Assembly (NCBI GenBank): GCA_945905735.1
Contig: CAMDQC010000009.1
Span: 1-64,000 of the forward strand
DNA from: Prosthecobacter debontii
Lineage (GTDB): Bacteria > Verrucomicrobiota > Verrucomicrobiia > Chthoniobacterales > Chthoniobacteraceae
Direction: 5' to 3'
Length of the DNA: 64,000 bases
Both the position numbers and the translations under genes were made by a program. This document shows, piece after piece, positions 30,301 through 61,765 of the stretch (positions are counted from its first letter, which is position 1; the number at the start of each line of letters is the position of its first letter). Below the pieces are notes generated by a model. It searched no databases. It was not told where the DNA came from and worked only from the letters and a program-made list of their open reading frames with translations.

Positions 30301-33300
30301 GTCCAGCCGGAGCCGAGCGGGAAGCTCACTGCGGTTGCGGGGATCCCGTTGCCCGTCACGAGCGTGCCGACGGTGATGGTCGCGGCGGTCGCGCTGGTCG
30401 TGCCGGTCGGTGCGCCGCTGACGGAAACGCCGAAGGGCCGCACGCCGCCTTTGTCCGAGCCGTTTGGCCCCGTGCCGCGTGCGGGCGAGCAGGTTTGCAG
30501 GCCGAATTGCGCGCGGATTCTTGGTGCGAGATAGCGGAAGTTCGCAGGCGTCGGAATCGGGATGTTCGACGCGCCAGTCAGCGTGTTTACAAATACGTCG
30601 TTGAGCTTTGGATCGACGCTCACATTGCCGGAGCCGGGGCCGGTCCATGTGATGCCGGGCGGGAAGATGTTGTTGTTCCAAGTCACCGTGCTGTTTGCCG
30701 GGATGTAGTTGCGCATGAGGCGCTCGGCGCTGTGGATGATATTGCCCTCGGCATACATGCCCGCGCCGTAGGTCGTGCCGTCGTCCGCGAAATTATACAC
30801 GCCGACGAGAAACTGAGGGTCGTTCGTCGCGTGGTATTCTTCCGTCTCGTCCGAGTTTCGTCCGTTTTGATCCACGACGGTGTTGTTGATGAACGTGTAA
30901 AAATTTCCCTGCTTGCCCGTGCATGCTTGGTCCACGTCGTAGATGAGGTTGCCGATGATCGTGACATTGGAGACATCGCTGCCGTTGTCGCCGCCGCTGA
31001 CCGCGCTCGCGCTGTCGGGCGTGCCGATGCGGTGCGTGTTCATGAGGATGTTGCCCTCGATCCAAGCGTCCGTGCCGTCGAGGTCGAGAATGTCGTCATC
31101 GCCACCCGCGCAGACGTTGTTGATGAATTGCAAAATCGGCCCCGTGCGCTGGCCTCCCGTGAAGTCGAACACGTCGTTGTAGCCAATGCTGTAGCCGAAA
31201 TAGCAGTCGCGCACGATTCCGCGCCCGTCGATACGGACGCCGCCAGCTCCATGAACGACTTCGCCGATTGTTCCGCCAGTCGGGAAAATGCAATTACTGA
31301 CGAGGAAGGACGCGCCATCCAGCGAGAGATAGTCCACGCAGTTTGGGTTAAAATAGCAGTTGTCGATCTCCACATTGCCCGCGTTCACGTCGATTGCGTA
31401 GCTGCTCGCGTGCTCAAAAATACAGTGCCGGAAAACCGACATCGAAGAGCCGACTGCGCCGTTAATATCAAAGCCCGGCCAAGTATTCGTCGTGCCCGGT
31501 GCGCGGGTGAACCGAATCGGATTTACCTCCGTGCCCTCCGCCAAAATTCGCCCGCCAGTTGCCACGATGATGTCCACGCCATTACCGAGATACACGGTCG
31601 TTCCGGCCTCGATATTGATTGTCCCGCCTGCGTTTACGTTTAAGTCTGCGGCGATGACGTAAGGCCCGCCAGCCGCTGTCCACGTCACGTTCGTCGCAAT
31701 TGGCCCGGCGACCGCCGCCGTGCCGCCGTCTTCGTACCACACATCGAAGTCCGCATTTTCAAACTCCACATTCGCCCCATCGAAAGACGTGACGTGCAGG
31801 CGATTGATGCCCGGCGTGAGCGGGATGGAACTCAGCGACCACGTCGTCGTGAAAGCATTCCACGTCGCAGCGACGCCGTTCACTTTCACCGAACGAGTCT
31901 TGCCCGCGTGCGCACGCCCCGTGAGCCGGAAAGTTGCCGCGAGCGACTGCGGATAGCCGCTCACCGTCGTGAGCGCCGTGCCGCCATTCGTCGAAGCCAC
32001 GATGCCGGAAATCGTCACCGGAATCACCGATTGGACATACGCGAGCCGCGAGGCATACCACGTCTTGCGGTCCGCGATAATCGTCTCACTCACCACTCCC
32101 TTGAGGATGTGATCCACGAGCGCGTTAAACTTCGCCTGCGACAAATTCCCGTTCATCAAATCGAGATGCGCTTGAAAAAATTGCGGCGCAAAATCCGGGT
32201 GACGGATGAACGCATTCATCTGCGTCGGCGTCGTCCCGCCGCCGTGATAGCTCATCATTTGAAAAATGCTGTCCGTCGCTGGATACGGTGAATCGCCGTG
32301 ACCGAGAATCGTATCGAGGTCGTGCGGCAGCAGCTTTGCGCGGATGTCCGTCTTGCCAAAATACACATTAAAATCATCACCGTAGCCCCCGATGATACTC
32401 GTCTCGTTATTCCCGAGCAGATTCTGCGTCGCGAACCATTTCATAAATTGCGCCACGTCCAACTTCGACGCGATGTCCGCCGCGTAAGTCGCCGCATCCG
32501 GCGTGTAGCTCACATTCGTCATCGTCGTGGAGACACCATTCGCCAGAGCCTGCGTGAAGTTGATCAAGTCCGACCAATTATCCTCCGACACATTCGTGTC
32601 CTTAAAATAGACCGGGCGATACAAATTCGGGTCTGCGCCGAGATACGCAAGATCGCCCTCCTGCGAAGTGACATCCGAGCGGCGGATGCTGTAAATGTTT
32701 CCGCTGCTATCCAACGGGAAATGATGGTCCGCGAAGTTCGTATCCGCGCTCTCATTTGCCACGTAAAAGAAGTAGCTATCGCCGCCAGTCGTGCCGCCCA
32801 CTACAGCCGGGAGGTCGATGCCATTGATGCGCACTTGCACTTGCCGCGAATCAAAGCACGGAAGCTCTGCGCTCCGCATCAGCGCACTGCCGACGAGCTG
32901 CAGATACGTGTAATCTGAGTTCAGATTCAGCCCCGTCTGCCCCTTCCAATCGGTGTCATTTGGAAAGCCCACATGGAAACTCTGAGGGTCGTGCGAACCG
33001 CTGCCGTGACCACGATTGCGAGCAAAACAATTATACCGCAACTCTGTGCCCGTGCCGTCGCGCGTAATCCACGTCATGCTCATCTTCGCATGACTGCCTC
33101 CCGTTCCTCCGGCCGTATCGTTGATCGTCGCGAGAGTCGCACGATCCACCTCTTTCAGGATCATCCGATAAATCGGCATCGCGCCCGCATACACCGTGTT
33201 ATCGACTTGGTAGAGACAGTTCGCGATCTGCGCCGGAAAGTGAGTCAACGTTCCCGTATCGTACTCCAGCGCCGCCTTTGGCCAAGTCCGCGCATTCGCC

Positions 33301-34181
33301 GCCGCATCGCTCGCCTCCACGTAAAACTCCACAATCGCATCATCCGCCTGCGCCGGGATTTGCGCCCCGTAGCGCCCATCGCCCGCGAGCCCATCGGCGT
33401 GCGCACCGTCATCAAACATCGGCAGCGCAGTGAAAGAACCCGCCGCATCCAATTTGTAATAGAGCGTCGCCGTCAGCCCCGTCGTCAGCTCATCCGCGAG
33501 CTTCGCATTCACCGTCACAACGTCCGTGCTCGTCGGCAAAAGCGGGAAATGCTCCACCTCCAAAATGAACGGCGCAATATTCGCCACCGCGATAGAATTT
33601 GCCACGCCCGGAGTGCCCTCCGCAGTCGCCGAGTCGCCCCAATTTTGCCCCCGCGAATTATCGTGCGCCGCCTGGATCAGCTCCAGCGATTTTCCCCCGC
33701 CATCCGCCGCCGAAAACCAAGTCCACCCGCGATAACCTTGATCCAACACCGCAGCCTTTCGCCGAGTCGCCCAATCGCCATCATCCGCGTAATTTACCGA
33801 ATCGCGAGTGACCAGCAGAGCGTCCTTCAAAGTGACCGTATTCGCGCTATTCGAGAGTTGCCCGACCCAGCCCGCGACGAAGTTCGTCACGGTCGGATAC
33901 TTCGCCGAAAACGCTGCCGAATTTGCCGCCACAACAAGGTAGCCGCCCGCCGGAATCGTCGTCGCCGCCGGGACGGTAAAAGTGACGCCATTCGTAAACT
34001 GCCACCCTGCCACGCTTACCGACGCTGCATCCGGATTGTGCAGCTCGATATACTCCTCAAGCGGGTTCTCCGACTGAGGATGATACATGATTTCCGAAAT
34101 CAGCACATCGGCACGAGCGGCGACAGCGAATGCGAATATAAGCAGCAAAGACAAGAAACGAGCGTATGGAGTGTGGAGCAT
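27354..34181 (-). CDS. Giant secreted LTD / CotH-kinase-like / beta-helix protein
   Basis: A protein of 2275 residues. A signal peptide (about 1-24) is followed by a first lamin-tail domain (about 25-190, VLISEIMYHPQSENP), an Ig-like strand region, and a CotH-type kinase domain (about 330-720) with LLPHDLDTILGHGDSP as its acidic metal loop. A right-handed beta-helix follows at about 860-1200 (repeats such as FRHCIFEHASSYAIDVNAG). Four further lamin-tail modules are spread between about 1390 and 2150, with a sandwich domain in between. The tail is a TSP3-like calcium module (DTDGDGMPDAYELANGLNP), then FIAIAGKTYTVRYKD and the end RFYQIVTPQQ. CotH proteins in Bacillus phosphorylate spore-coat proteins; the substrate here is unknown. 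Domain limits are approximate. Confidence 0.9.
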   Translation of the reverse strand: MLHTPYARFLSLLLIFAFAVAARADVLISEIMYHPQSENPLEEYIELHNPDAASVSVAGWQFTNGVTFTVPAATTIPAGGYLVVAANSAAFSAKYPTVTNFVAGWVGQLSNSANTVTLKDALLVTRDSVNYADDGDWATRRKAAVLDQGYRGWTWFSAADGGGKSLELIQAAHDNSRGQNWGDSATAEGTPGVANSIAVANIAPFILEVEHFPLLPTSTDVVTVNAKLADELTTGLTATLYYKLDAAGSFTALPMFDDGAHADGLAGDGRYGAQIPAQADDAIVEFYVEASDAAANARTWPKAALEYDTGTLTHFPAQIANCLYQVDNTVYAGAMPIYRMILKEVDRATLATINDTAGGTGGSHAKMSMTWITRDGTGTELRYNCFARNRGHGSGSHDPQSFHVGFPNDTDWKGQTGLNLNSDYTYLQLVGSALMRSAELPCFDSRQVQVRINGIDLPAVVGGTTGGDSYFFYVANESADTNFADHHFPLDSSGNIYSIRRSDVTSQEGDLAYLGADPNLYRPVYFKDTNVSEDNWSDLINFTQALANGVSTTMTNVSYTPDAATYAADIASKLDVAQFMKWFATQNLLGNNETSIIGGYGDDFNVYFGKTDIRAKLLPHDLDTILGHGDSPYPATDSIFQMMSYHGGGTTPTQMNAFIRHPDFAPQFFQAHLDLMNGNLSQAKFNALVDHILKGVVSETIIADRKTWYASRLAYVQSVIPVTISGIVASTNGGTALTTVSGYPQSLAATFRLTGRAHAGKTRSVKVNGVAATWNAFTTTWSLSSIPLTPGINRLHVTSFDGANVEFENADFDVWYEDGGTAAVAGPIATNVTWTAAGGPYVIAADLNVNAGGTINIEAGTTVYLGNGVDIIVATGGRILAEGTEVNPIRFTRAPGTTNTWPGFDINGAVGSSMSVFRHCIFEHASSYAIDVNAGNVEIDNCYFNPNCVDYLSLDGASFLVSNCIFPTGGTIGEVVHGAGGVRIDGRGIVRDCYFGYSIGYNDVFDFTGGQRTGPILQFINNVCAGGDDDILDLDGTDAWIEGNILMNTHRIGTPDSASAVSGGDNGSDVSNVTIIGNLIYDVDQACTGKQGNFYTFINNTVVDQNGRNSDETEEYHATNDPQFLVGVYNFADDGTTYGAGMYAEGNIIHSAERLMRNYIPANSTVTWNNNIFPPGITWTGPGSGNVSVDPKLNDVFVNTLTGASNIPIPTPANFRYLAPRIRAQFGLQTCSPARGTGPNGSDKGGVRPFGVSVSGAPTGTTSATAATITVGTLVTGNGIPATAVSFPLGSGWTHYKYRLNGGAWSAETPIADPIALTGLANGPQTLDVVGKNDAFFYQDDAAFGPTGTTTTRTWTVDTAYVPPTPAPIVRISEVLASNTETINFGTAFPDIIELTNVGNGTADLSGWGLTDNAALPFKYTIANGTTLAPGAHLVIYASGSGSVPAPKTGFGLGATGDDLTLTRSVAAGGGIADSVIWGQQLPDRSIGRCIDGSWDLCVPTFGSANINAPQSQASAVRINEWLAEAVTLFANDFVELHNPGQNPVNIGGHFLTDNPAEWPNRSAIRQLTFISAGGFLSFKADGDTSQGPDHVDFKLSALQGELGFMSPTLDALDVVIYGPQRTDISQGRSPDGALNVATFPQPSPGAPNPFDNSSISTNTVVVPNVITAGGTWSYFVHASAAPANDGSGRDFTHALYDDSAWPTAAGCFYIEPSAFPANTDGFAKTTLLTGFTATRPYQTYYFRKHFTYDGALPSANTTIELRGRVICDDGAVFYLNGQPLTPRLRVAGTGIASFSTRASLAPEVTYENIVLDATGLVNGDNVLTVSVHQADTQSAGAGSSDITWGMKLDIAAITTSALLSVPVVINEVLPVNVSYQNPDNSFSGWIELINNGTDAYDLSDFSLSDAIGTPRKFIFAPGTTIAANGRLVLYCNPLAAVSASNTAFNLSAAGDQIFLFKSNALGGGLSDSIVFGQQLPDLSLARIPDGTGAFALAIPTRDAINSAAATTAATSVKLNEWLAAPVTPAPTWLELYNTAATPVLLSGNYLTDSFGNKTKHLIPPHTYLGGSGSSRWLQLIADSDNSATANHVNFTIENGEGLWLFTNAGTQLDGVAVNAQPIGTSQGRFADGSATIVALTPTPGTANQVPNLDTDGDGMPDAYELANGLNPNDANDATQDADADGQSNKAEYLAGTNPQFPGSKLAATVAATGTPGQFAVTFIAIAGKTYTVRYKDDLTSASWTNLQQIAAPSVDTVTTVNDTPGVPKRFYQIVTPQQ

Positions 34182-48831: not shown

Positions 48832-51800
48832 TTACTGCTGAGGCGTGACGATCCGGTAGAAACGAGCGACTCCGGCGGTCGTGTCCGTGTGCTGGAATGC
48901 TGTGTCGCTGCCTTGCGCGGGCACGTCGATCAGCTCCAGCCAGGTCGCGTCGGCGAGCGCGTTTTTGTATTGGATGGTGTACGTTTTCCCGGCCTTCGAG
49001 GGGAAGGTGACGATAAAGCCGGGACCCGATGCTTTGACTACGCTGCTAATGAGGAAGCGGTCGGTGGCGTTGTTGGGCGCGGTGCCGGCGAGGTATTCGG
49101 CGAGGTTGCTTTGGCCATCGCCGTCGAGGTCACCAGCCGCGTCGTTCACGAATTTGTCGAGGCCGTTGGCGTCTTCGTACGTGTTCGGGATTCCGTCGCC
49201 GTCGTTGTCGAGAATCGCAGGTTCCCCGACGTTTTTCGCTCCGGCGGTGTGGGTGAAGCCTTCCCAATTTGCCGGGTCGTTGCCGATGGCGGTGCGGGCT
49301 TTGCGCTGGAGTGTCTCGCCGGTGCCGTCCGGCGTGACCGGCCACGGGGCGAAGTCGGTGTAGCTGACTTTGTCCACGTTCACGAACTCGCCCGGAATGA
49401 GCGTGGGTTTTGCGACCTCCACGTCGCCTTCGTCGTTCGCCAGCTTGGGTGAAAATGGGCCGTAAATCAGGACGCTGAGCGGCAGCGAATACGTGGCGCG
49501 AAAGGCGTTCAGCGAGGTCGTGTCGGTCGCGGGATTAAAGCCGACGACGAGGATGTAGTCGCCGGGGCGGAGCGTGGTGCCGTTGGCAAATGTGAAGTCG
49601 CTCGCGCCTTTCAAGCGCCAACCGGAGAGGTCCACTGCGGTCGTCGTTGGGTTGTGGAGCTCCACGAATTCATCGCGTGCATTATCCAACGGACCAGCGA
49701 GGTCGAGCGGGTGGTAGGCGAGTTCGTTGATGATGACGGGAATGACGAGCGAGGCGCTATTCACTGCGCCGGGCGTGCGGGCGACTTGCGGCCAAAACTC
49801 GGGCTTCCACGAGCCGATCGGATTGCCCGTGCGGACGCGGCCAAAGCTTACATTTTCCGCCGCGACGCCGAAACCGACTTGCGAGCGGTAGCCTGTTTCG
49901 TTGCCGCCGCTCGCGGCGGTGAGGACGATCTCGTCGCCGAGCGAACCGAGCAGGAACGGATTTGCGCCTGCATTGAACTGCGATTCGCTGAAGACGACAA
50001 AGCTGCCCGCGGCGACGTTTGTGCCGCCGGGGATTTGGAATTTTTGCCGCGCGGATTTGTCGTCGCTGAGCCACCAACCGGAGATGTCCACGGCGCTGCC
50101 GGTCGGGTTGTGCAGTTCGATGGAGTCTTCGAGCGGGAGAACGGAATTGGTCAGCGCTTCGTTCACGACGACGGCGCTTTCGAGCCAGTTGCTCGCCGCC
50201 TTCGACTCGGTGAGCGTGAAGTTCACAAGCGTGGCGGCGCCATCCGGCAGGCGTCCGCGGGAGACGTTTGCGCCGCCGCTGGTGATGGCGAGAGAGTCGA
50301 TGGTCACGGTGCCTGCGGTGTTCGAGAGCACGAGGTTGTCGCCACCTGCGCTGAGTTTGAAATTCGCGTGGTCAAATCCATCGTTGCTGCCGTCTGCGCG
50401 GAAGTCCGCAAAGCCCGTGCCCGCGATATAGCTGAGCGCGGGAATCTGCGTGATGCGCGGCGTGGCGGGTGTGTCGCTGAGCCACAGTCCGGCGATGCTC
50501 ACGGGCAGCGCGTCGCCATTATAAATCTCGAACCAATCGTCGCCGTGCGCAGGCTGCGCCATCCACTCGTTCACGCGCAACGTCGCGGTGGAACCAAGCG
50601 TCACAGCCACGCTGTTCGTCGCGGCGGGCGTCGGCAGAGTCAGCGTAAACGCGCCCGTTCCATCGCTCACGCGCCCGATGGTGAAGCCGCGCGCCTGCGG
50701 GCCAAATGGCACGTAGTCGCGGATGTTGTTCGCGCCTTGCGTGAGCAGCAAATTTTGCCCGCCCGCGCTGAGTCCGAATCCGGTGACATGCGTGCCGAGC
50801 GTGGCGTCGTTGTCAAAATACACGCGCAGATACGCACCGGCGGCGATGCTCGTGGTTGCGGGGAAAGTGTAGCGGCCCGGCACGAGGATGTCGTCCGTGA
50901 GGCCCCACCCGCTGATGTCCACCACAGCGCCGGTGACATTTTTCAGCTCCACCCAATCCGCGCCGCTCGCCGGGTTCGCGGCGATTTCGTTGATGGCGAT
51001 TTGATTGCCGAGCGACGGGATGGTCGCGGTGAGTTCAATGCCCATCATCACGTCGCTGCTTCCCGCGCCAGTCTGGTGGACTTGCACGGCGATTGTGTTC
51101 ACTCCCTGCACGAGAAACGGGCGCGGGTCCACCCACGCCCACGTGCCGGTGTTGGCGATGGCGCTTGCGATTTGCAGCGACGCTTCGCCCGGTCCCGCAG
51201 CGCCCGAAGTGAACTCGGCGGTCGTGTAGTTGGCCTGCTCGTTGAAGAAGTAGCGGTGGACTTTGTTGCCGTTGATCCAGATGACGCAGCCGTCGTCCAC
51301 GAGGTGCCGGAGTTGAATCGAGGTAATGCTCGCAGGTGCCGCATTTATCGTGAAGGTCTTGCGGAAAAGAACCGCGCGTCCTGCCGGCGAGAGTGTTCCC
51401 GGCGCAGGCAGTACAGTGCCTCCGGTGCCGGGCGTCGGAACGGGCTCGCCGCTTTGGATGAAGACGCCATTTCCGTTTGTCCACGCGCTGTCGTTAAACG
51501 CGGGCAGCGTCCACGAGTTGTCCGTGAACGCGGTGGTGTGGTTGTATTTCCACGAGTCCGTCCAGTTGATGAGCGTCTGGTTCGTCGGCTGTGCGCCGAA
51601 TACGAACGACGCCTCTGCGCTTCGCAGCGATGGATGTGCGCTCGCATCGGTGTACGTCACGCGCCAGAAATACGTTTCGCCGAAGGTCAGTTCGTTAAAC
51701 GGAATCGGGAGCGACGTGAGATTCGTCGTGCTCGTGATGGCGTATATGGGCGCGAAAAATGTGCCGGTCGCGCTGCGGATCTCCCAACGCGATGAAGCGT

Positions 51801-54800
51801 GTGCATTTCCGCCAGCGGTGTTGCCGCTCGTGTGTGTGTAGGTGCTCGCGGTGAGCGATGCAGGCGGGAGCGCGGTCGCTCCGCCGATGGGCGCATTGAG
51901 CGTGGGCAACGTCGGTCGGAAGAAGTCGCTGCCGTCCGCTGCGTGGCCGGTCTGCGTATTCACGCTTTGAAAGCGTGCGTTGATAAAAGTCGCGCCGATG
52001 AAATTGAAGTAGCTGTTCATCGCGCCGTTTTGGTCGCGATAGGTGAGCGTCTGGAGATTCGCGGCGGTGAGGAACGTGTTGTTCAGAATCCAGAGCCGGT
52101 TTTGATACTCGGTGCGGTAGGCTTTAAAGACGGAGTCTTTGAACCAGTTTGGCCCACGGAAATTATTGCCGGGGAATCCCGTCGGCAGGCCGTGTTCGCC
52201 GAGGTAAATCGAGGAGCCGCTGCCGGTGCTGTCGCCCGTGCCAAACATCCCGTCGAAATCCCACAGCATGTGATTCCAGCGCCCGTTCGCACGTTTCCAC
52301 AAGTAGTGATTTTGCGTCGTGTCGTCCCAAGGAGTCATCCAGTTCGCGAGGGCGAGCGAGTCCAGCACGGTGGGTAGATCGAGTTGGCCGTCGAGGTAGG
52401 TGCGGAGGTTGGTGATATTCGGAGCGGGCGCGGTGTGCGTGTCGCCGCGTGCGGTCCACATTCCTTCGATGAAATCCTTTATGGGCTTTGCGCCTTTCCA
52501 TCCGTTGTTTTGCAGCGCGTAAGTCCACTCGTAGCGTTGCAGTGCCGTCCACGGCCCGGCGGCTAGGAGCACGCGCTCGCTGCCGTGGCCGTAGGGGCCT
52601 TCGCCCGCGTCCTCGATGGTGCCGGTGCTTTTATAAAACTCGCCGTTCTCTTCCTTCACGCTGCCGGGGTTCAGGTCTTTGACTCGCTTGTGGTATTTGT
52701 CGAGCAGGTCGCCGTTGTATTCGCCCTGCTGAAGCCGCACCTGCACACCGTTTCCGTTGAGATACCAGTCCACCCAATTGATTTCCGACATCGGCAATCC
52801 GGCGTTGATATAAAGACCCTGCGACACGCTGAAGGAGTCGCTTTTGTCGGTGATGAAAAAGCTATCCGCACCATCGAAAAGCTGCGTGTCCGAGAAGCGC
52901 ATTTTGTAGGACTGCCGGCCTGCGTTGCGGTTGTAGCGGCTGCCGTGGTAGCGGATTTGCGCGTCGCGCACGGTGCCGTTGTGGATGTGAATGCAATGCA
53001 CGCTGCCGTTCCAAATTTGCGCCGTCGCTGCGACAAAAGGCTCGATGCGCGGCAGGCCATTGTTGCTGCCGTCGGTCACGCGCTTCGGGTTGCCGGTGAT
53101 GTTGTAATTCAGCGCAGCGACGCCGTTCAGTCCGTTGAACGCGCCGTTCGTAGAATCGCTGTTTGAAATGAACACGTCGTAAATCGCCGTCTTCGTCGTC
53201 GTGCGGACGGGCTGCACAAAATACGCCGCCCACGCCTCGCGCCCCGTGAGGCTGACGGGCACGATGGCCGCGTCGTCCGTGCGCGGGAACACTTGCTCCA
53301 CGCCGGTTCCACGGTTCGCTTTTACGCGCCAGCGGACGACGCTGCGGTCAGCCTGACCGGGGATCGTGGCGGTGAATTGATTATTGCCCAGCGCCGTCAT
53401 CGCGAGCGTCGAGCGCGGCTCGCTGTAGGCCGTCGCGCCGTCGATCACGTCGATGAAATACTCCACCTGCGGAACCGTGAGCCCCGCTGTCGTGGAAAAC
53501 TGCGCAGTCACACGCACTGCCTGCGTCGCACGAATCGTCGCGCTGTCATCGCTCGCCTGCACCGCGCTAAACGCCACGAGCACCGGCTTCGGCACAGCGA
53601 GCGAGACAGCGTTTGCCGCACCCGGCGTGGGTGCACTGCCGACCGGCGACGCGAGCCAGTTTGCAGGATCGTTGCCCTCCGCATTGGCGCTCACGCGCTG
53701 GAGCGAGCGGCCTTTGTATTGGTAAGTCGCGGAGTTCAGCAGTGTGAAATCATCGCCAGCTCCGAGTGCGTCCGCGCCGCTTGGCCACGGGAACTCGCGG
53801 TCGTAGCTCACGCTGTCCACCGTCGCGCCGGGAGCGTCTTTCAAAGCGACCGTCGTCCCGCCGTTTTTCAGCTCGCCCGTGTAAGGCCCGAGCACGCCCG
53901 TCAGCCCCGCATAAACCGCCTGCAAACGCGCCGGATTTTTTGCGATGACCACGTATCCGTTCGCCGCGATGGTCGTGCCGCCGGGGATGGTAAAGTCCAC
54001 CCCATTATCCAACCTCCAGCCCGCGATAGAAATCGGCGCAGCAGTCGAATTGCGCAGCTCGACAAACTCATGCTGCTCCTCCGTGAGCGTGACCGTCGGA
54101 TTCCCGTTCACATCGAACGCCGGAAGCTCCACCGGGTTGTAATGAATCTCGTTAATCAGCACCGAGCGCGTCACCGCCGCAGCAGTCGTAAACGTCTGCG
54201 AGGCCGATGCCCACACGGTCCCCGCCGCATTCGTCGCCTGTGCGCGGTAGAAGTATTGCGTGTTCGCCGGGAGACCCGCAAGCAGGTGAGCAAACGCGCC
54301 CGACTGAGTCCCCGCGAGCGTCACGTTCGACGCCCACGAGCCCGTGCCGCCATCCGTCGTGCCGTAGAAAAACTTCACCACCGGCGGGTCGTTGCCAATG
54401 CTCGTCACCGTCCCACGCATCGTCGCGGAAAAGCCGTTCACATCGGTCGCCGCGTCGGTCGTCAGCGCAGGCGGCGTTGCATTTGATGTGGTGAAAGTCG
54501 CCGTCGTCGCCGCCCAAGAACTACCCGCCGCGTGCGTCGCAAATGCGCGGAAAAAATACGGCGTATTCACCGCCAGCCCGGACAGCGTCGTCGTCGCCGA
54601 AGTCGTCACTGCACCGAGATTCACGCTGCTTGCCCACAAGCCCGCCGTCGTCCCGCCATCCGTCGTGCCGTAGTAAAGCGTGACGTTTGGCGTGAGCCCG
54701 CCAGTCGTCGTGATTTGCGCTCCGACCGTCGCGCCCGAGGCCACGACATTTGTCGCCGCGATGTTTGCAACCACCGGCGCACCATTCGCTGTTGTGAAAG

Positions 54801-55791
54801 AAATCGCAGGCAGCCCAAAACTATCGCCGCTCGCATTTTGCGCCCGCGCAATTGCGAAGTATTGCGTAGCCGGAAGCAGCCCGCTGATGCCCGTCGTGAA
54901 CGCCGAATTGCGCGTGCCGAGATTCACCGAGTTTGCCCAATTTGCAGGAACCGAACCGCCATTCGTGAGCCCGTAATACATCGTCACCGTCGGGTCCGGC
55001 GAACCCACCTGCAGAAACGAGCCACCAATCGTCGCCCCGCTCGAAGTGATGCCCGAAGCCGCCGCCGTCTGCACCAGCGGCGCATTCGGATTTGTCGTAG
55101 TCGCCGCCGCATAATGCGCCGCCACGCGACCCGCGTTCAGCGCCGTGCCGTAATACGCCACTTCGTCAATCTCCCCCGTGAACCAAAGCGCGTTGATGTT
55201 CGCACCGATGATGATGTCCGTATTCGCCGACATCGAGACCGCGTCCGCCGCCGAACTTCGCACGACGCCATCCACGTAAAGAGAGATGTTGTTTGACTCA
55301 CGAACGTACACGACATGATGCCACGCATTCGTCGTGGTGTTGAAGTTCGGAAGCGTCCCATTGTGCCAACCGCCGATGTCACCCGCGCCCGCACTGTTCG
55401 CAAAAATCCCGAAGTCTATGGAGTTCTTAAAATTGAACATGTCTCCGCGTCCCGTGACTGTTGTGCGGTACCACAACTCCACGGTGAAATTCCCCGCCCC
55501 AAGATTAAATGCCGCATCAAACGGCATCCGCACGCGAGCATTTGTGCCATTGAAAGTCACCGCCGTCCCGAGATTCGGAAACGCCGCCGTCGCGCCAAGC
55601 GTGCAGTTTTCGTAGATACCGTTCTGCGCCGTTCCCGCCGAATCCACCGCAGTCGTCCCCGTCGTTTCATCAAACGACCAAAACGCAATCGGTGAATCTG
55701 CGGAGACGGCGGAGTTATATGTCGCGTTGCCGGCCCGTAGAGCAAGGGCGAGAGCAAAGAATGCGAATATCCGGAGTATGTGTGTTTTCAT
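48832..55791 (-). CDS. Giant secreted LamG / LTD / CotH-kinase-like protein
   Basis: A protein of 2319 residues, start at MKTHILRIF with a signal peptide. A LamG/ConA domain (about 25-235) is followed by four Fn3-like repeats of the CxxATxxG pattern (about 240-560) and a lamin-tail domain. A CotH-type kinase domain (about 900-1280) has MLWDFDGMFGTGDSTG as its acidic loop. At least four more lamin-tail modules and a sandwich domain follow. The C-terminus repeats the layout of the other giant protein: TSP3-like calcium loops, FPSKAGKTYTIQYKN, and the end RFYRIVTPQQ. It is the last gene of the minus-strand VTC, DUF4956, pseudopilin run, about 160 bp after the pseudopilin, with a hairpin between. 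Domain limits are approximate. Confidence 0.9.
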   Translation of the reverse strand: MKTHILRIFAFFALALALRAGNATYNSAVSADSPIAFWSFDETTGTTAVDSAGTAQNGIYENCTLGATAAFPNLGTAVTFNGTNARVRMPFDAAFNLGAGNFTVELWYRTTVTGRGDMFNFKNSIDFGIFANSAGAGDIGGWHNGTLPNFNTTTNAWHHVVYVRESNNISLYVDGVVRSSAADAVSMSANTDIIIGANINALWFTGEIDEVAYYGTALNAGRVAAHYAAATTTNPNAPLVQTAAASGITSSGATIGGSFLQVGSPDPTVTMYYGLTNGGSVPANWANSVNLGTRNSAFTTGISGLLPATQYFAIARAQNASGDSFGLPAISFTTANGAPVVANIAATNVVASGATVGAQITTTGGLTPNVTLYYGTTDGGTTAGLWASSVNLGAVTTSATTTLSGLAVNTPYFFRAFATHAAGSSWAATTATFTTSNATPPALTTDAATDVNGFSATMRGTVTSIGNDPPVVKFFYGTTDGGTGSWASNVTLAGTQSGAFAHLLAGLPANTQYFYRAQATNAAGTVWASASQTFTTAAAVTRSVLINEIHYNPVELPAFDVNGNPTVTLTEEQHEFVELRNSTAAPISIAGWRLDNGVDFTIPGGTTIAANGYVVIAKNPARLQAVYAGLTGVLGPYTGELKNGGTTVALKDAPGATVDSVSYDREFPWPSGADALGAGDDFTLLNSATYQYKGRSLQRVSANAEGNDPANWLASPVGSAPTPGAANAVSLAVPKPVLVAFSAVQASDDSATIRATQAVRVTAQFSTTAGLTVPQVEYFIDVIDGATAYSEPRSTLAMTALGNNQFTATIPGQADRSVVRWRVKANRGTGVEQVFPRTDDAAIVPVSLTGREAWAAYFVQPVRTTTKTAIYDVFISNSDSTNGAFNGLNGVAALNYNITGNPKRVTDGSNNGLPRIEPFVAATAQIWNGSVHCIHIHNGTVRDAQIRYHGSRYNRNAGRQSYKMRFSDTQLFDGADSFFITDKSDSFSVSQGLYINAGLPMSEINWVDWYLNGNGVQVRLQQGEYNGDLLDKYHKRVKDLNPGSVKEENGEFYKSTGTIEDAGEGPYGHGSERVLLAAGPWTALQRYEWTYALQNNGWKGAKPIKDFIEGMWTARGDTHTAPAPNITNLRTYLDGQLDLPTVLDSLALANWMTPWDDTTQNHYLWKRANGRWNHMLWDFDGMFGTGDSTGSGSSIYLGEHGLPTGFPGNNFRGPNWFKDSVFKAYRTEYQNRLWILNNTFLTAANLQTLTYRDQNGAMNSYFNFIGATFINARFQSVNTQTGHAADGSDFFRPTLPTLNAPIGGATALPPASLTASTYTHTSGNTAGGNAHASSRWEIRSATGTFFAPIYAITSTTNLTSLPIPFNELTFGETYFWRVTYTDASAHPSLRSAEASFVFGAQPTNQTLINWTDSWKYNHTTAFTDNSWTLPAFNDSAWTNGNGVFIQSGEPVPTPGTGGTVLPAPGTLSPAGRAVLFRKTFTINAAPASITSIQLRHLVDDGCVIWINGNKVHRYFFNEQANYTTAEFTSGAAGPGEASLQIASAIANTGTWAWVDPRPFLVQGVNTIAVQVHQTGAGSSDVMMGIELTATIPSLGNQIAINEIAANPASGADWVELKNVTGAVVDISGWGLTDDILVPGRYTFPATTSIAAGAYLRVYFDNDATLGTHVTGFGLSAGGQNLLLTQGANNIRDYVPFGPQARGFTIGRVSDGTGAFTLTLPTPAATNSVAVTLGSTATLRVNEWMAQPAHGDDWFEIYNGDALPVSIAGLWLSDTPATPRITQIPALSYIAGTGFADFRADGSNDGFDHANFKLSAGGDNLVLSNTAGTVTIDSLAITSGGANVSRGRLPDGAATLVNFTLTESKAASNWLESAVVVNEALTNSVLPLEDSIELHNPTGSAVDISGWWLSDDKSARQKFQIPGGTNVAAGSFVVFSESQFNAGANPFLLGSLGDEIVLTAASGGNETGYRSQVGFGVAAENVSFGRVRTGNPIGSWKPEFWPQVARTPGAVNSASLVIPVIINELAYHPLDLAGPLDNARDEFVELHNPTTTAVDLSGWRLKGASDFTFANGTTLRPGDYILVVGFNPATDTTSLNAFRATYSLPLSVLIYGPFSPKLANDEGDVEVAKPTLIPGEFVNVDKVSYTDFAPWPVTPDGTGETLQRKARTAIGNDPANWEGFTHTAGAKNVGEPAILDNDGDGIPNTYEDANGLDKFVNDAAGDLDGDGQSNLAEYLAGTAPNNATDRFLISSVVKASGPGFIVTFPSKAGKTYTIQYKNALADATWLELIDVPAQGSDTAFQHTDTTAGVARFYRIVTPQQ

Positions 55792-55887
55792 GGCAAGGAG
55801 CAGAGCGGTGGGAGAGGGAGACAGTTCTTCACCACCCGGCATGCCTCAAGCTGATTTTTCGGATAAGGCATCCCATTTTTCGAAGGC

Positions 55888-55928
55888 AAAAAATCAGGGC
55901 GATCCGACATCTGTCGAATCGCCCTGAT
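55888..55928 (-). terminator. Terminator after the pseudopilin gene
   Basis: A stem ATCAGGGCGATCCGAC / GTCGAATCGCCCTGAT with one mismatch and a 4-base loop. On the minus strand it is followed by TTTTTT. It lies 22 bp after the pseudopilin stop, so the giant gene below probably needs its own promoter or readthrough. Confidence 0.85.
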
Positions 55929-55950
55929 GGGTGAGTTTTGTGAGTCAGCC

Positions 55951-56784
55951 TTAGTTCGCTGCGGGGGCTCCGCCGGTTTTGCCGTTCGGGTCACTTTTCG
56001 GGTCTGTCGTCCAAAGAATCGTGGACTGATTGGTATCCGCATCGGCGGCCCAGATGATTTCCCCCGTGGCAGTGAGCAGATCCTTCCCTGCGACTTCCCG
56101 AGCACCGCCGTCGAGGAATGAGATGACTCCTTTGTTTGTGTAACGGGCGACGAAGGACTTGGCGTTGCCTTTTGGGGCTCCGTCGTAGTCTTTTTTCGAG
56201 ATGGTCTCGTGGGCGCGTTCTTCGCCGGGGAGACCTTGCTCAAGAAAGATTACAGTCCGACTTGGGTTCGTAATGGATTGGATCCGAACATCGTTTTTCT
56301 TGTCGTCCTTATCCTTGCGCTGGAGTTTGCCATTAATCGCGATCGCGAAGAGCGGCTTTTGCGATTTTTTCATTTCAGAATAACGGGCACCGGGCAGGAA
56401 AAGGATATTTTCCTTGGTATAGAAGGCCGCAGTGCGCCCCTCTTTCACATAGTCGGATGGCGATTTTACTCCCATCTGCTTTGGGAGGGCGTTGTACCAC
56501 GCCTTCTGCTGGTCGGGGGTGGTCATTGTGCCCCAGTCTTCCTTCCCTGCGGCATCTTCCTCAGGCAAAAGCCCATCGTGCTGTCCCGCGTAAGTTGCGG
56601 CTGCACTGCCGAGGTTCTTCAGGACAGCCAAGGCGACTGCTTTATTTGAACCCGTTTTTATTTTCGCATAAACGGGCAACGCGATGGCGGCGATGACGAT
56701 GATGATCGCGATGACGACCAATATCTCCATCAAGGTGAATGCCGACTGGCGGCGGAGCATTGTGGCGGACGGTGTAATTTTCAT
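55951..56784 (-). CDS. Type II secretion/pseudopilin-like protein
   Basis: A 277-residue protein. After MKITPSATMLRRQSA comes the class III signal FTLMEILVVIAIIIVIAAIA, giving a prepilin-peptidase site A|FTLME with Glu+5. The body is a long alpha helix plus a globular domain of the H-X9-DG/DUF1559-like sort. Start set at the ATG at 56784, 4 bp after the DUF4956 stop; the frame opens further up but only as a shadow. It would be assembled by a GspE/PilB system such as the one at 15 kb. Its place between DUF4956 and the giant CotH gene is unusual. Confidence 0.88.
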   Translation of the reverse strand: MKITPSATMLRRQSAFTLMEILVVIAIIIVIAAIALPVYAKIKTGSNKAVALAVLKNLGSAAATYAGQHDGLLPEEDAAGKEDWGTMTTPDQQKAWYNALPKQMGVKSPSDYVKEGRTAAFYTKENILFLPGARYSEMKKSQKPLFAIAINGKLQRKDKDDKKNDVRIQSITNPSRTVIFLEQGLPGEERAHETISKKDYDGAPKGNAKSFVARYTNKGVISFLDGGAREVAGKDLLTATGEIIWAADADTNQSTILWTTDPKSDPNGKTGGAPAAN

Positions 56785-56788
56785 ATTT

Positions 56789-57622
56789 CTAGTTTGTGCC
56801 AAGTGTGCGGTTCGGAGCGGTGGAGGTGAGCAGGACGCGGTTGTTTCCGTTGACCTGTTGGATGGCTGCGACAAGTTCCCCGGCTGGATGTTCTGGTTTA
56901 AGGCAAATGTTATAGCGAATCTCCGTCATCATGCCGGCCTGAATGGATTCCACCGAGATGATGTCGTGCTTCTCAAGGAACTTGTTGAAGACTGCCTCAA
57001 ATGCAACGTCATAGTTTATGTCATTTGTGACACGAATGCGGAGGAAGTGGCTGGCTCGGTTTGGCGCGAACCAGTTGCCACGGGAAAAGTAGTAGATAAT
57101 TGCGGCGATAACGGGCGTCGTCGCTACAGCCATGCCGTATTGACGAGCACCGACTGCGAGGCCAGTCGCCATGGCGAGGAAGATAAAGCCGATGTCGCGA
57201 GTTTCGCTTACATCAGCTCGGAATCGGATAATTGAGAATGCCGCGAACATACCGAATGCGGTCGCCTGAGCTTTATCCTTATCACCGAACCGCACGACTA
57301 AGATGATCGCCGTCACGACAACTCCGAGAATCATCAGCGTATGGACATAGTCCTGCGAGAGCTTGGCGCCTCGGAACGTGGAGCGATAGACCGCAGCGAT
57401 GAGTGCATTGAGCATGAACGACAGGAAAATCGCGAAAAGAATCTCCGGCAAACCAGCGTCCGCTGCTTTGAAATTCAGCGTATCGTGGAAGAAAGTGACG
57501 ACGCCGTTTAGGTTCATGTCGTGGAGGACTCTGAGAAGCGGTCCGAGTTTTTCTGGTTCGAGGTCTTCCGCGGACGCATTGGAGGCCGCAGCGGCTAGTG
57601 TTGGCAGTATGGATTGCAGCAT
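56789..57622 (-). CDS. DUF4956 membrane protein
   Basis: A 277-residue protein with about four membrane segments (residues about 55-180, for example LPEILFAIFLSFMLNALIAA, VHTLMILGVVVTAIILVV, GFIFLAMATGLAVGA) and a C-terminal soluble domain with an RAS/VTND and MMTEIRYNICLKPEHPAG pattern. It matches DUF4956 as I remember it; such genes commonly sit beside VTC-domain polyphosphate polymerases and CotH genes. That is the case here. Gap to the VTC gene is 38 bp. Function unknown. Confidence 0.88.
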   Translation of the reverse strand: MLQSILPTLAAAASNASAEDLEPEKLGPLLRVLHDMNLNGVVTFFHDTLNFKAADAGLPEILFAIFLSFMLNALIAAVYRSTFRGAKLSQDYVHTLMILGVVVTAIILVVRFGDKDKAQATAFGMFAAFSIIRFRADVSETRDIGFIFLAMATGLAVGARQYGMAVATTPVIAAIIYYFSRGNWFAPNRASHFLRIRVTNDINYDVAFEAVFNKFLEKHDIISVESIQAGMMTEIRYNICLKPEHPAGELVAAIQQVNGNNRVLLTSTAPNRTLGTN

Positions 57623-57660
57623 TATATAGAGTGACTAAATCGGGTTGAGTGGGCGCGGCC

Positions 57661-58491
57661 TTAGCCGACAGATGGAATTAAAACGCCTTCCGGCGCGGTG
57701 ATGACGTTGGATTGTGCGGGAAGTGGTTTTCTCCAGTTCGGGGCGAGCATTGCGCGGAGTACGGGATCGCTCCGTTCGAGCGCGTTGCAGTACTTGGAGT
57801 GGCTCTGTAGCTTACAGCCCGTCCGAGCAAGCAATACGCTGAGACTGTAGGGGATCGTCCCTGTAATTTTGACCTCCAAGACGGAGGTATCTGCGGGATA
57901 CATGTAGTTCTCTGGGAGAAAATTCTGGTCGTCTGGTGTCGGGTTCAGGTTATCGAGGCGGTAGGCGATTCCTGTGTCGAAAGTGATGCGCAGGTCGCTC
58001 GTTGGGTCTTTCGAAGCATAGGCGCGGCGGTCGTAGCGCATCGTCATACAAGGGCGAAAGCCGCGCCGAATCACCAAATCATTGATGATCTCTTCGCAAG
58101 TCCGCCGGTCCACAGGTCTCAGCGGAATCTCGGGCATCGTTCCTTGCCCCACGAGCATGGCAGCCTCTAGCGGCATCCGAACGCGGCGCTTCACTCCACG
58201 GCCTTCCTGCTTGTGCTTCACTTCGATGAAGACGGTCGGTGGGATTTTGCCTCCGTTGCTGCCATAGACGCGGACACGGAACTTCCGGCGGTTTTTGGAC
58301 CCCCGGACTTTCTCCCAATAGCAGTCCCGCTCCGCGTTATCGTAATAGAGCGAAACAATGGGGTAATACGCCGTCTCGTCCGCATTGGCGTCAGCGCAGA
58401 GTTCAGGTTCGAGGGTTTCCATCAATCGAGCGCGTGTGTCAGCGTCGATGACGAACTTCATCTCAAATCGGTCTAATCGTTGAAAGCTCAC
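57661..58491 (-). CDS. VTC-domain polyphosphate polymerase-like protein
   Basis: A 276-residue protein of the CYTH/VTC tunnel-fold group. It has RLDRFEMKFVIDADT at the start, VSLYYDNAERDCYWEK, an RKFRVRVYG strand, FIEVKHKQEGRGVKRRV, MRYDRRAYAS and EVKITGTIPY. The many Arg/Lys strands pointing into the tunnel fit binding of ATP and polyphosphate. In eukaryotic Vtc4 this domain makes polyphosphate; bacterial members next to DUF4956 have no settled role. First gene of the minus-strand run to the giant CotH protein. Start is ATG at 58491. Confidence 0.88.
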   Translation of the reverse strand: MSFQRLDRFEMKFVIDADTRARLMETLEPELCADANADETAYYPIVSLYYDNAERDCYWEKVRGSKNRRKFRVRVYGSNGGKIPPTVFIEVKHKQEGRGVKRRVRMPLEAAMLVGQGTMPEIPLRPVDRRTCEEIINDLVIRRGFRPCMTMRYDRRAYASKDPTSDLRITFDTGIAYRLDNLNPTPDDQNFLPENYMYPADTSVLEVKITGTIPYSLSVLLARTGCKLQSHSKYCNALERSDPVLRAMLAPNWRKPLPAQSNVITAPEGVLIPSVG

Positions 58492-58673: not shown

Positions 58674-60761
58674 TCAGTTCCCGCCGAAAAACTGACGAAA
58701 TGAACGCAACAATCCCGGCTCTGCTTTCGCTTCCGGTTTACGCAACCCTCCCTCGTCGGGAGTGCCTTCTTTTTTCCCCTGCACAAAATCTCCGCGTCGC
58801 CCCTCGCTCGGCTTAAATCCTTGCGCCGGGTAACGATCTACATCCGCACGCTTCATCACATCCACCCACACGGGAAGGGCTAAGGTCGCACCGTATCCTT
58901 TGGGGACGATGGTCGCCGGTTTATCCAGCCCGACCCATACCCCGCAGGTCAGGCTCGGCGTGTATCCCACGAACCACGCATCGTGATAATCATTTGTCGT
59001 CCCCGTCTTTCCCGCTGCGGGGAACTTCCACCCCAAATCCTTCGCAGCGGACGCCGTTCCTCGCTCGAAGACCTTCGCCAGCACCCCCGTCGTCGTTCGT
59101 GCCACGTCTGCGGAGAGCGCTGCGATCTTCACATGCGAGGCTCGGTAAAGCACCTCGCCCTCTGCGTTGTCGACGCGCTCAATGATGTGGCTCTGTCGCC
59201 GCACGCCGTCATTCACCAGCACCGAATACGCTGTGACTAAGTCCTTGAGCGTCGCCCCGAATGTCCCGATGTAAGACACTGGTGCCAGCGGCATTTCTTC
59301 CAGCCCCACAGCGGTCGCGACCTTTTGCACAGCCTCCAACCCAGCACGTGCGCCCACCCGGACTGTCATCGTATTGCGCGAGCGGATGAGCCCATCTTCC
59401 GCAGGCAACATCCCTCCGTACTTATCGTCCGAATTATCCGGAGTCCAATTCGGCGCTCCCGCTATTTCCCCGCGCCCGATGGCTTCGTCGGAGATCAAGG
59501 TCGAAGGCGTCATCCCTTTCTCAAACGCCGCCGCATACACGAAAGGCTTGAACGTCGAGCCGATCTGCCTTTTCGCATCCAGCGCCCGGTTGAATTTGCT
59601 CTCCCGATAATCTCGCCCACCCACCAGCGCTCGGATCGCCCCGCTCCGATTATCCAGCACCATCACTGCGCCCTGCAAATATTCCGTGGCTTGCTCTGCG
59701 AGCCTCATCTCGTCACTAAACGCCGCTCTCTTAGAGTGCGGATATCCCGGCCTCGCCTCGACTTTCGTCAACTGCCTATCGAGCGCCTTCTGAGCTTCCT
59801 CCTGAAGCACAGGATCAATCGTCGTGTAAATCTTCAGCCCGCCTTGGTCCTGCTGGGCATCATCCAAAAGGATGTCCAAATCCCGATGAATCGCATCCAT
59901 CGCATAATTCTCCTGCGTCGTGAGTCGCTTCGCAGCCACCACCTTCAGTGTTGATTTCTTCGCAGCCTCGATAGCCTCCGGCGAAAGGTCATACTTCTCC
60001 CGAATCCAGTCGCAATCGCTGTTTTTCAGCCGCTCCAGCACCATATCGCGCTCCGCAACCGCTCGTTTGTAGTTGGTAAAAGGCGACGCCCTCGTGGGCG
60101 CTCGGATGATTCCCGCAATCATCGCGGCTTCGCTGAGATTGAGCTGCGAGGCGCTCTTTCCAAAGTACACTTTGCTCGCCATTTCGATCCCATACACCCC
60201 ACTTCCGAAATAGATTCGGTTCATGTAGTGCTCCAGAATATCCCCTTTCCCGTAAGACTTTTCGATCCGTAGCGATACGAACACTTCGAGCAGTTTCCTG
60301 TCTAGGCTCTTCCTCTGCCCTAATGAATCGAAGCTGTTGCGCGCCAATTGCTGCGTCAGCGTGCTCCCGCCTTGCTGCTTCCCCTGTGCAGTCCTCACCA
60401 CCGCCCGCGCCAGCCCCATCGGGTCCACGCCCCAATGACCGAAAAACCGTGTATCCTCCCGCGCCAAAAGCGACGCCACAAACAACGGCGACACCTCCAC
60501 GAGCGGCACCGGCACACGATTCTCGCCCTGCATTCGCCCCCACACTTTCCCGTCCAGATCATACACCGTCGAACGCTCCTTCATCACCGTCACCCCCGTC
60601 ATATCGAATCTCGACGCCCGCCAATAATAGACGGCCAAAACCAGCACCGTCAAAAGGAAGGGCCATCCCACCAAATGAAGCAACCAGCGCTTCCAACGAA
60701 GACGTTTGCGAGGTCGATTGCCGCTACTACGGCGGCTGGTTTTCTTGATGCGGCGTGCCAC
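58674..60761 (-). CDS. Penicillin-binding protein 1A-type (glycosyltransferase and transpeptidase)
   Basis: A 695-residue class A PBP. A basic N-terminus and one membrane anchor (about 27-47) are followed by a GT51 domain with the catalytic Glu102 in REDTRFFGHWG, then GGSTLTQQLARN and RKLLEVFVSLRIEKSYGK. The transpeptidase has GSTFKPFVY (SxxK), SRNTMTVR (SxN) and AGKTGTTNDYHDAWFVGYT (KTG). It polymerises and crosslinks peptidoglycan at the inner membrane. The tail is Lys/Glu/Pro-rich. It starts near the divergent pseudopilin gene. Confidence 0.95.
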   Translation of the reverse strand: MARRIKKTSRRSSGNRPRKRLRWKRWLLHLVGWPFLLTVLVLAVYYWRASRFDMTGVTVMKERSTVYDLDGKVWGRMQGENRVPVPLVEVSPLFVASLLAREDTRFFGHWGVDPMGLARAVVRTAQGKQQGGSTLTQQLARNSFDSLGQRKSLDRKLLEVFVSLRIEKSYGKGDILEHYMNRIYFGSGVYGIEMASKVYFGKSASQLNLSEAAMIAGIIRAPTRASPFTNYKRAVAERDMVLERLKNSDCDWIREKYDLSPEAIEAAKKSTLKVVAAKRLTTQENYAMDAIHRDLDILLDDAQQDQGGLKIYTTIDPVLQEEAQKALDRQLTKVEARPGYPHSKRAAFSDEMRLAEQATEYLQGAVMVLDNRSGAIRALVGGRDYRESKFNRALDAKRQIGSTFKPFVYAAAFEKGMTPSTLISDEAIGRGEIAGAPNWTPDNSDDKYGGMLPAEDGLIRSRNTMTVRVGARAGLEAVQKVATAVGLEEMPLAPVSYIGTFGATLKDLVTAYSVLVNDGVRRQSHIIERVDNAEGEVLYRASHVKIAALSADVARTTTGVLAKVFERGTASAAKDLGWKFPAAGKTGTTNDYHDAWFVGYTPSLTCGVWVGLDKPATIVPKGYGATLALPVWVDVMKRADVDRYPAQGFKPSEGRRGDFVQGKKEGTPDEGGLRKPEAKAEPGLLRSFRQFFGGN

Positions 60762-61006
60762 GGGCTAAAGGTCGAATTTCTCGGCAATCATCGGCCCGAA
60801 GCCAGTGGGAGTCCAGCGCGCATTCGGCCTCATGCCCCTCATATAAAGCGGATCCGAGACGCTCCCAATGCGCTCGATTCCTATTTTGAATGGGCCGCGC
60901 TTGGCTCCAAAACGCGGGCGTTGCGAAAATCCGAAACGAACAAGAAATTCAGTTGTTTCCTTCGCGAGCGCCGATAGTTTCGCCCCAACCACCAAGATAT
61001 TACCAA

Positions 61007-61765
61007 ATGAAACAGAACATCATAAAAACCTCTGATCTCCGCCCACAATTCGCCTTCACGCTGGTCGAACTTCTCACCGTCATCGCCATCATCGCGATTT
61101 TGATGGGGCTGCTCTTTCCCGCCATCAGTAATGCAAAGACGGCCGCCAGTCGCGCCGACGCGGGGACGATGGTGCGCAACATCGTGAACGCCTCCAAGGC
61201 TTACTATAACGATTACGGAAAGTATCCACCGATTGCCAAGGCGCTTGTCGAGTCCACGGGGTCTGGTTCAGGAGGGAAGAATGAGGCTACCGAGTCTTAC
61301 TACGCTTATGGGGACGTAGAGCTGTCGGAGGGTAAGGCGAAAGTGAATACGAACGAGATTTTCGACGTGTTACGCGCGATTTCACGCGGGGAAAATAAGG
61401 ATCACGAGATGAATCGCCGCCAGGTGAAGTATTATGAAGGCAAGAAGGCGTCGGATGTTGTGATCCGCAAGACTCGCAACGGGTTTGCCGATGGCCAAGA
61501 GTTTGGCGACCGTCAGGGGCGGCTCTACGATCCTTGGGGCACGGAGTACTTCATCGTCCTCGATGGCGATGGGAACGAAGAGCTCGACCTCGGCGATTTT
61601 TGGACGGACCTGAAGGCAGGGGACAACGCCGGGGCCAAGATTCGCTTCAGCGCAGTGGCATTCTGCATCGCGAAGGACGCGAAGTTCGGCGGCAAGGGCT
61701 ATGTTACCTTCCGCAAGGACGGCGCGCTCAATGAAGCGCCGGATGATATTGTCTCTTGGCAGTAG
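61007..61765 (+). CDS. Type II secretion pseudopilin-like protein (GspG type)
   Basis: A 252-residue protein. After MKQNIIKTSDLRPQFA comes FTLVELLTVIAIIAILMGLL, giving a prepilin-peptidase site A|FTLVE with Glu+5. A long helix and a globular domain follow, with YNDYGKYPP and DPWGTEYFIVLDGDGNEELDLG, the calcium-site-like loop of GspG pseudopilins. Start at the ATG at 61007. Followed by a heptamer-repeat hairpin shared with the convergent uxaC gene. Likely substrate of a GspE/PilB machine. Confidence 0.9.
   Translation: MKQNIIKTSDLRPQFAFTLVELLTVIAIIAILMGLLFPAISNAKTAASRADAGTMVRNIVNASKAYYNDYGKYPPIAKALVESTGSGSGGKNEATESYYAYGDVELSEGKAKVNTNEIFDVLRAISRGENKDHEMNRRQVKYYEGKKASDVVIRKTRNGFADGQEFGDRQGRLYDPWGTEYFIVLDGDGNEELDLGDFWTDLKAGDNAGAKIRFSAVAFCIAKDAKFGGKGYVTFRKDGALNEAPDDIVSWQ

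Follow-up and report, generated by a model that had tools for sequence, protein, structure and literature searches.

Gene content of the locus

The window analysed here (the whole stretch of 64,000 nt) comes from a draft genome of 5.19 Mb, whose relatives with named records are Chthoniobacterales MAGs. Its minus strand carries four neighbouring genes: a VTC-domain polyphosphate polymerase (57661..58491; 276 aa, GTG start), which is the first gene of the operon, a DUF4956 membrane protein (56789..57622; 277 aa), a pseudopilin as third gene (55951..56784; 277 aa) and a giant secreted protein (48832..55791). The intergenic gaps measure 38 bp, 4 bp and 159 bp, respectively. This run of genes, with its coordinates and the two shorter gaps, had been described in an earlier note on the same DNA and is found as given there; the length of 2319 residues reported for the giant also matches, using the signal-peptide start at 55791 (the open frame itself extends to 55842).

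Absent from that description are an intrinsic terminator (55893..55928, minus strand), located between the pilin and the giant, and a gene for penicillin-binding protein 1 (transglycosylase/transpeptidase; 58674..60761, minus strand), located 182 bp upstream of VTC. The latter is found upstream of VTC in nine genomes, the source genome included, and is a conserved neighbour that does not clearly belong to the module. A second pseudopilin gene is seen 4 kb off on the opposite strand (60890-61765, plus strand); among the loci examined it is kept in G002 only.

The source genome contains a single VTC gene, a single DUF4956 gene, 20 prepilin N-termini and 49 places with a CotH domain. Among 117 relatives searched, VTC is present in 21 genomes and DUF4956 in 21, with both present in 20 of the 22 that have either; three of these (G004, G005 and G020) carry the pair without the pilin. 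The linkage of VTC, DUF4956 and pilin goes far beyond chance, and very probably the three genes form one dedicated unit.

The polymerase and its membrane partner

The VTC protein is recognised by Pfam at 1.5e-38 (133.1 bits against a cut-off of 23) and has no predicted membrane helix. VTC-family enzymes make polyphosphate from ATP. The profile of the protein matches yeast Vtc4 (3g3q) at 5.8e-13, and eleven positions are invariant among 15 homologues (R68, R72, R74, K92, K101, R103, R155, R168, E206, K208 and K233), several of which align with Vtc4; their catalytic roles are presumably those that we know from the yeast enzyme. The predicted active-site positions thus appear to be kept, in line with the earlier assignment as a VTC-type polyphosphate polymerase. 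The operon protein shares the catalytic domain family and these positions with the yeast complex, in which synthesis is coupled to translocation, but its chain lacks an SPX or VTC1-type membrane domain and it has DUF4956 as membrane partner instead. The source genome also encodes PPK1, so that storage polyphosphate of the ordinary kind probably does not depend on VTC; a second polymerase, paired with a membrane protein, hints at a special use.

DUF4956 is matched by PF16316 at 8.8e-19 (68.3 bits against a cut-off of 30.6). The AlphaFold2 model (mean pLDDT 66) predicts membrane helices followed by a C-terminal ACT/ferredoxin-like domain (about residues 188-272), and the fold comparison is based on this C-terminal domain only. 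In the model the domain resembles ACT-like folds, including amino-acid and metal sensor domains and the C-terminal domain of MgtC (7qa5: Z 8.6, rmsd 3.6 over 85 aligned residues, one of many ACT-like matches). Foldseek returned no match to the model at E up to 0.001, and Pfam gave no MgtC match (PF02308) at E up to 0.01. Comparing the profile of the membrane part with that of MgtC proteins of relatives (hhalign) yields a probability of 67%, a weak match, against 0.1-0.3% for two controls; this is suggestive only. In the prediction DUF4956 resembles MgtC/SapB proteins in having membrane helices and then an ACT-like domain, but differs in the missing Pfam match and the weakness of the profile-profile match. 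Such a domain, if modelled correctly, fits sensing as well as transport.

A pseudopilin family tied to VTC and DUF4956

The third gene encodes a protein with the prepilin motif A^FTLMEIL, including E5, and an N-terminal hydrophobic helix (Pfam N_methyl 1.7e-5, 24.6 bits against a cut-off of 21.2). It represents a family of its own that is conserved over its full length, with F, T, M and E of the motif invariant in 11 sequences. With the pseudopilins of type II secretion systems and type IV pili it shares the cleavage motif and the N-terminal helix, but its C-terminal part of about 200 residues belongs to its own family and scores below the cut-off of the type II secretion equivalog models (GspG 23.9 against 88.85, GspH 22.5 against 80). 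An AlphaFold model based on five sequences (mean pLDDT about 34.5) is too poor for reading the fold.

Among the 117 relatives, all 11 genes that score 380-466 bits against the pilin lie directly after DUF4956, mostly at a gap of less than 40 bp; they come from two genera of the source family and from a further two families in the same order. Lower scores are 317 and 308 (both in G028), 227, 176 and about 160, after which they fall to 79 bits or less, with matches that mostly concern the shared prepilin N-terminus. A scan of genome contigs with the pilin yields, beyond five loci, mostly generic prepilin N-termini. The order VTC-DUF4956-pilin is also present at two loci from another group of the class, one in G327 (family f15) and one in SS_bin_91, an Akkermansiaceae MAG whose contig ends within the pilin, in both cases with a divergent CotH/lamin-tail gene. 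The pseudopilin is a stable member of the VTC-DUF4956 unit: the earlier note would have given up its proposal if the gene were unlinked to the pair in relatives, and linkage is what these loci display. We also considered that the pilin might be an insertion peculiar to the source genome, and rejected this on the same order in relatives.

Two deviating cases were seen. G028 has two isolated copies of the operon pilin family (L213 and L214) with an altered prepilin motif, AFSxFELL; VTC and DUF4956 were not found in this assembly, which is about 79% complete. In G094 a distant pilin homologue precedes, by 21 bp, a lamin-tail protein bearing passenger-associated transport repeats (L218:5988-9359).

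The gene slot following DUF4956

The gene that immediately follows DUF4956 was listed for about 50 loci from the phylum and identified by Pfam or local profiles. A pseudopilin is present in 13 loci, a Porin_O_P-type outer-membrane porin in 8 (all within 40 bp, in families f15 and f17), a HlyD-type membrane fusion protein in 7, CotH in 4 and a TPR protein in 2; gaps are mostly below 40 bp or the genes overlap. In G004, G005 and G020 no envelope gene occupies the slot. Each Porin_O_P match is partial, covering about 160 residues at 31-46 bits, and members of this family are not always phosphate-specific. The slot is lineage-specific and mostly holds an envelope part, and these loci show the exchange of the third gene.

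A tree of 45 DUF4956 proteins indicates one origin for the porin group (97/97) and one for the HlyD group (89/84), while the pilin group spans two orders. The groups consist in part of close relatives, and long branches make the deep placements unsure. The pair of pilin loci from f15 and Akkermansiaceae is placed just below the porin clade (100/100, 100/99), and because the porin clade nests above them, the porin probably took over the slot of the pilin.

The combination of CotH, VTC and DUF4956 is known: a cotH-PPP-DUF4956 accessory gene group has been described in Gram-positive pel clusters (PMC7112168), in agreement with the earlier statement that the three families are often neighbours in bacteria. 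At our locus the same families are neighbours, but the pseudopilin and the terminator intervene between DUF4956 and the CotH gene. It differs further from the published group, as far as the available text describes it, in that no pseudopilin, porin or HlyD partner is mentioned there; the operon has no recognised pel genes alongside, and the CotH domain here is built into a lamin-tail protein of 2319 aa encoded past a terminator. What appears to be new here is the exchangeable slot: a limited literature search (no proof of novelty) found no paper that mentions DUF4956 together with a pseudopilin, porin or HlyD partner.

Probable separate transcription of the giant

The terminator is a strong one, a 16-bp stem with a 4-nt loop followed by TTTTT, just past the pilin stop and ahead of the giant. 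All four relatives that share this layout (G002, G009, G031 and G033) have a hairpin with a T-rich tail at the equivalent site; its stem sequence closely resembles that of the source in G002 but differs in G009, G031 and G033. A scan for sigma-70 promoters found nothing, a negative of little weight in this phylum. Because the terminator-like hairpin lies between the two and is kept in four relatives, VTC, DUF4956 and pilin would form one transcription unit and the giant probably another, downstream one, which goes against a single run of four co-transcribed genes, a reading that we considered and set aside.

The giant CotH/lamin-tail protein

The giant starts with a signal peptide, followed by a LamG domain (Laminin_G_3, 2.3e-17), an Fn3-like region (a sub-threshold match only), five lamin-tail domains (LTD, 3.2e-71), a CotH kinase domain (5.1e-14) and a Ca-repeat-like and C-terminal region. 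The CotH domain (52027..52953, minus strand; PF08757, 53 bits against a cut-off of 23.8) contains the motifs PWDDTTQNHYLW and LWDFDGMFG, whose WDD and WDFD align with the conserved aspartates of classic CotH proteins. B. subtilis CotH requires D228 and D251 (PMC7821199), a numbering to which the motifs are linked only through a weak alignment of a classic relative to 5jd9. In a sequence search of structures, the CotH domain of the giant alone matched no CotH structure, whereas the classic relative did.

The fusion of CotH with LamG, Fn3 and lamin-tail modules had been called unusual, a view that does not hold for this genome. There are 49 CotH places in 5.19 Mb (about one per 106 kb), mostly within large open frames. 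Besides the giant, the window has two more CotH/lamin-tail genes, at 27354-34181 (minus strand) and from 63624 (plus strand) to beyond its end, so the architecture is ordinary here. Secreted CotH/LTD proteins are very strongly expanded in the source genome. At such a density, proximity of a CotH gene by itself is weak evidence.

In a tree of 61 CotH domains, the giants adjoining VTC in the source genome, G002, G031 and G033 form one clade (100/100) with a long stem. This clade is common to two genera and separate from the remaining CotH copies of the source genome. G009 has the same giant by sequence, the end of one adjoining its pilin. Homologues at the search threshold were obtained from G002, G009 and G018 only (43 relatives searched), and the two in G018 are near neither VTC nor a pilin. 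No giant is present beside the pilin-bearing operon in six genomes (G001, G006, G007, G008, G041 and G073). The giant on the operon side in G327 groups with a different paralog of the source genome (100/100), which implies that at least two CotH lineages came to lie beside the operon; placement of the one in the Akkermansiaceae MAG is ambiguous.

Elsewhere a classic CotH gene directly precedes VTC (in G013, G026, G037 and family f20). These proteins belong to the same family as the giant's domain and the Bacillus spore CotH (5jd9), and those of G013, G026 and G037 precede VTC in sister genera, but they are proteins of about 600 aa with a CotH domain only, and the VTC neighbour in the source genome belongs to another CotH clade. 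The source ortholog of the classic type (100/100) is found on another contig, away from VTC (G000:C2:53085-54914; L293:9085-10914), where it adjoins a DUF6288/HEAT protein. Six classic VTC-linked proteins have HGMD in place of WDFD in the giant and WDYD in B. cereus CotH; judged from the alignment, one acidic position may have been lost. Overall, the part of the earlier note that links CotH to VTC and DUF4956 stands insofar as CotH genes are repeatedly found next to the pair, in various layouts and clades, but not for the giant at six pilin loci; the giant is a looser neighbour of the operon than the pilin.

Possible functions of the operon

We tentatively propose that the VTC-DUF4956-pilin operon makes polyphosphate and moves it toward the cell envelope. 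The anatomy of the operon is well supported; export, and the part of the pilin in it, we infer. VTC, judging from its conserved active-site positions, would polymerise phosphate from ATP on the cytoplasmic side of the inner membrane, DUF4956, a membrane protein with a modelled ACT-like domain, would pass or gate the polymer, and an exchangeable envelope part would carry the process outward (the pseudopilin here; a Porin_O_P porin, a HlyD adaptor or a membrane-anchored CotH elsewhere). This reading is based on the single VTC and single DUF4956 that are nearly always paired in relatives, on the pilin following DUF4956 in 11 of 11 strong cases and also in f15 and Akkermansiaceae, and on a slot that holds porin, HlyD or CotH genes and in which a porin seems to have replaced the pilin. 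It is further favoured by the Vtc4 positions kept in VTC, by the coupling of synthesis to membrane translocation in eukaryotic VTC (PMC10657179), by the additional presence of PPK1, and by the recurrence of CotH genes beside the pair, with a terminator kept after the pilin where the giant follows. The regulator-like domain of DUF4956, the partial Porin_O_P matches and the three slots lacking an envelope gene weaken it.

That regulator-like domain can also be taken at face value. DUF4956 might then control VTC as an MgtC-like sensor that responds to ATP, phosphate or polyphosphate, with an output that tunes secretion or assembly of surface proteins (pseudopilin and CotH included) while polyphosphate stays cytoplasmic. 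The resemblance of the modelled domain to MgtC and to amino-acid and metal sensor domains points in this direction, as do the contrast between the MgtC profile match and the two controls and, to judge by its title, a paper that ties MgtC to phosphate uptake (PMC6658541). We consider this rather unlikely, since it leaves the porins and membrane-fusion adaptors after DUF4956 unexplained, and the MgtC match is weak with no Pfam counterpart.

Two further explanations concern the giant. It might lie beside the operon by genomic habit, as neighbouring secreted-protein genes without a functional tie, which is possible though doubtful: the many CotH places, its absence from six pilin-bearing operons and its separate transcription unit all fit, but the same giant clade occurs beside the operon in two genera, another CotH lineage (and an ambiguous one) does so in G327 and the Akkermansiaceae MAG, and a classic CotH directly precedes VTC in other lineages. 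Alternatively, and in line with the suggestion of the earlier note that it exports the giant, the pseudopilin could serve the export of CotH/lamin-tail giants as a dedicated subunit of a type II secretion or type IV pilus-like apparatus. It does have a prepilin motif, the source genome has 11 T2SSE-type ATPase matches, and the distant homologue in G094 precedes a lamin-tail gene. Yet a terminator separates pilin and giant, the six pilin loci do without an adjoining giant and G018 has giants without a pilin nearby, while one such pilin would face 49 CotH places, the roughly 48 others sharing 20 pilins; we therefore find export of the giant by the pilin decidedly improbable.

Returning to polyphosphate export, the giant would be a separately transcribed secreted client that uses or binds the exported polymer, which could for instance supply the giant's kinase domain with phosphoryl groups or be an anionic constituent of a matrix. 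This is the least certain step, and use of exported polyphosphate by CotH is in our view unlikely. ATP is scarce outside the cytoplasm. In a wider form, which strikes us as equally improbable, VTC-DUF4956 would export polyphosphate in bacteria generally, with interchangeable envelope partners (pseudopilin, porin or HlyD adaptor), and the exported polymer would be the phosphoryl donor for extracytoplasmic CotH kinases; if true, this would account for the association of CotH, VTC and DUF4956 across bacteria.

Summarizing, the operon offers a first clue to what the uncharacterised DUF4956 and one of the many pseudopilin families of the Verrucomicrobiota may do. Both the transfer of polyphosphate across bacterial membranes and the phosphate source of extracytoplasmic kinases become testable here with only a few genes.
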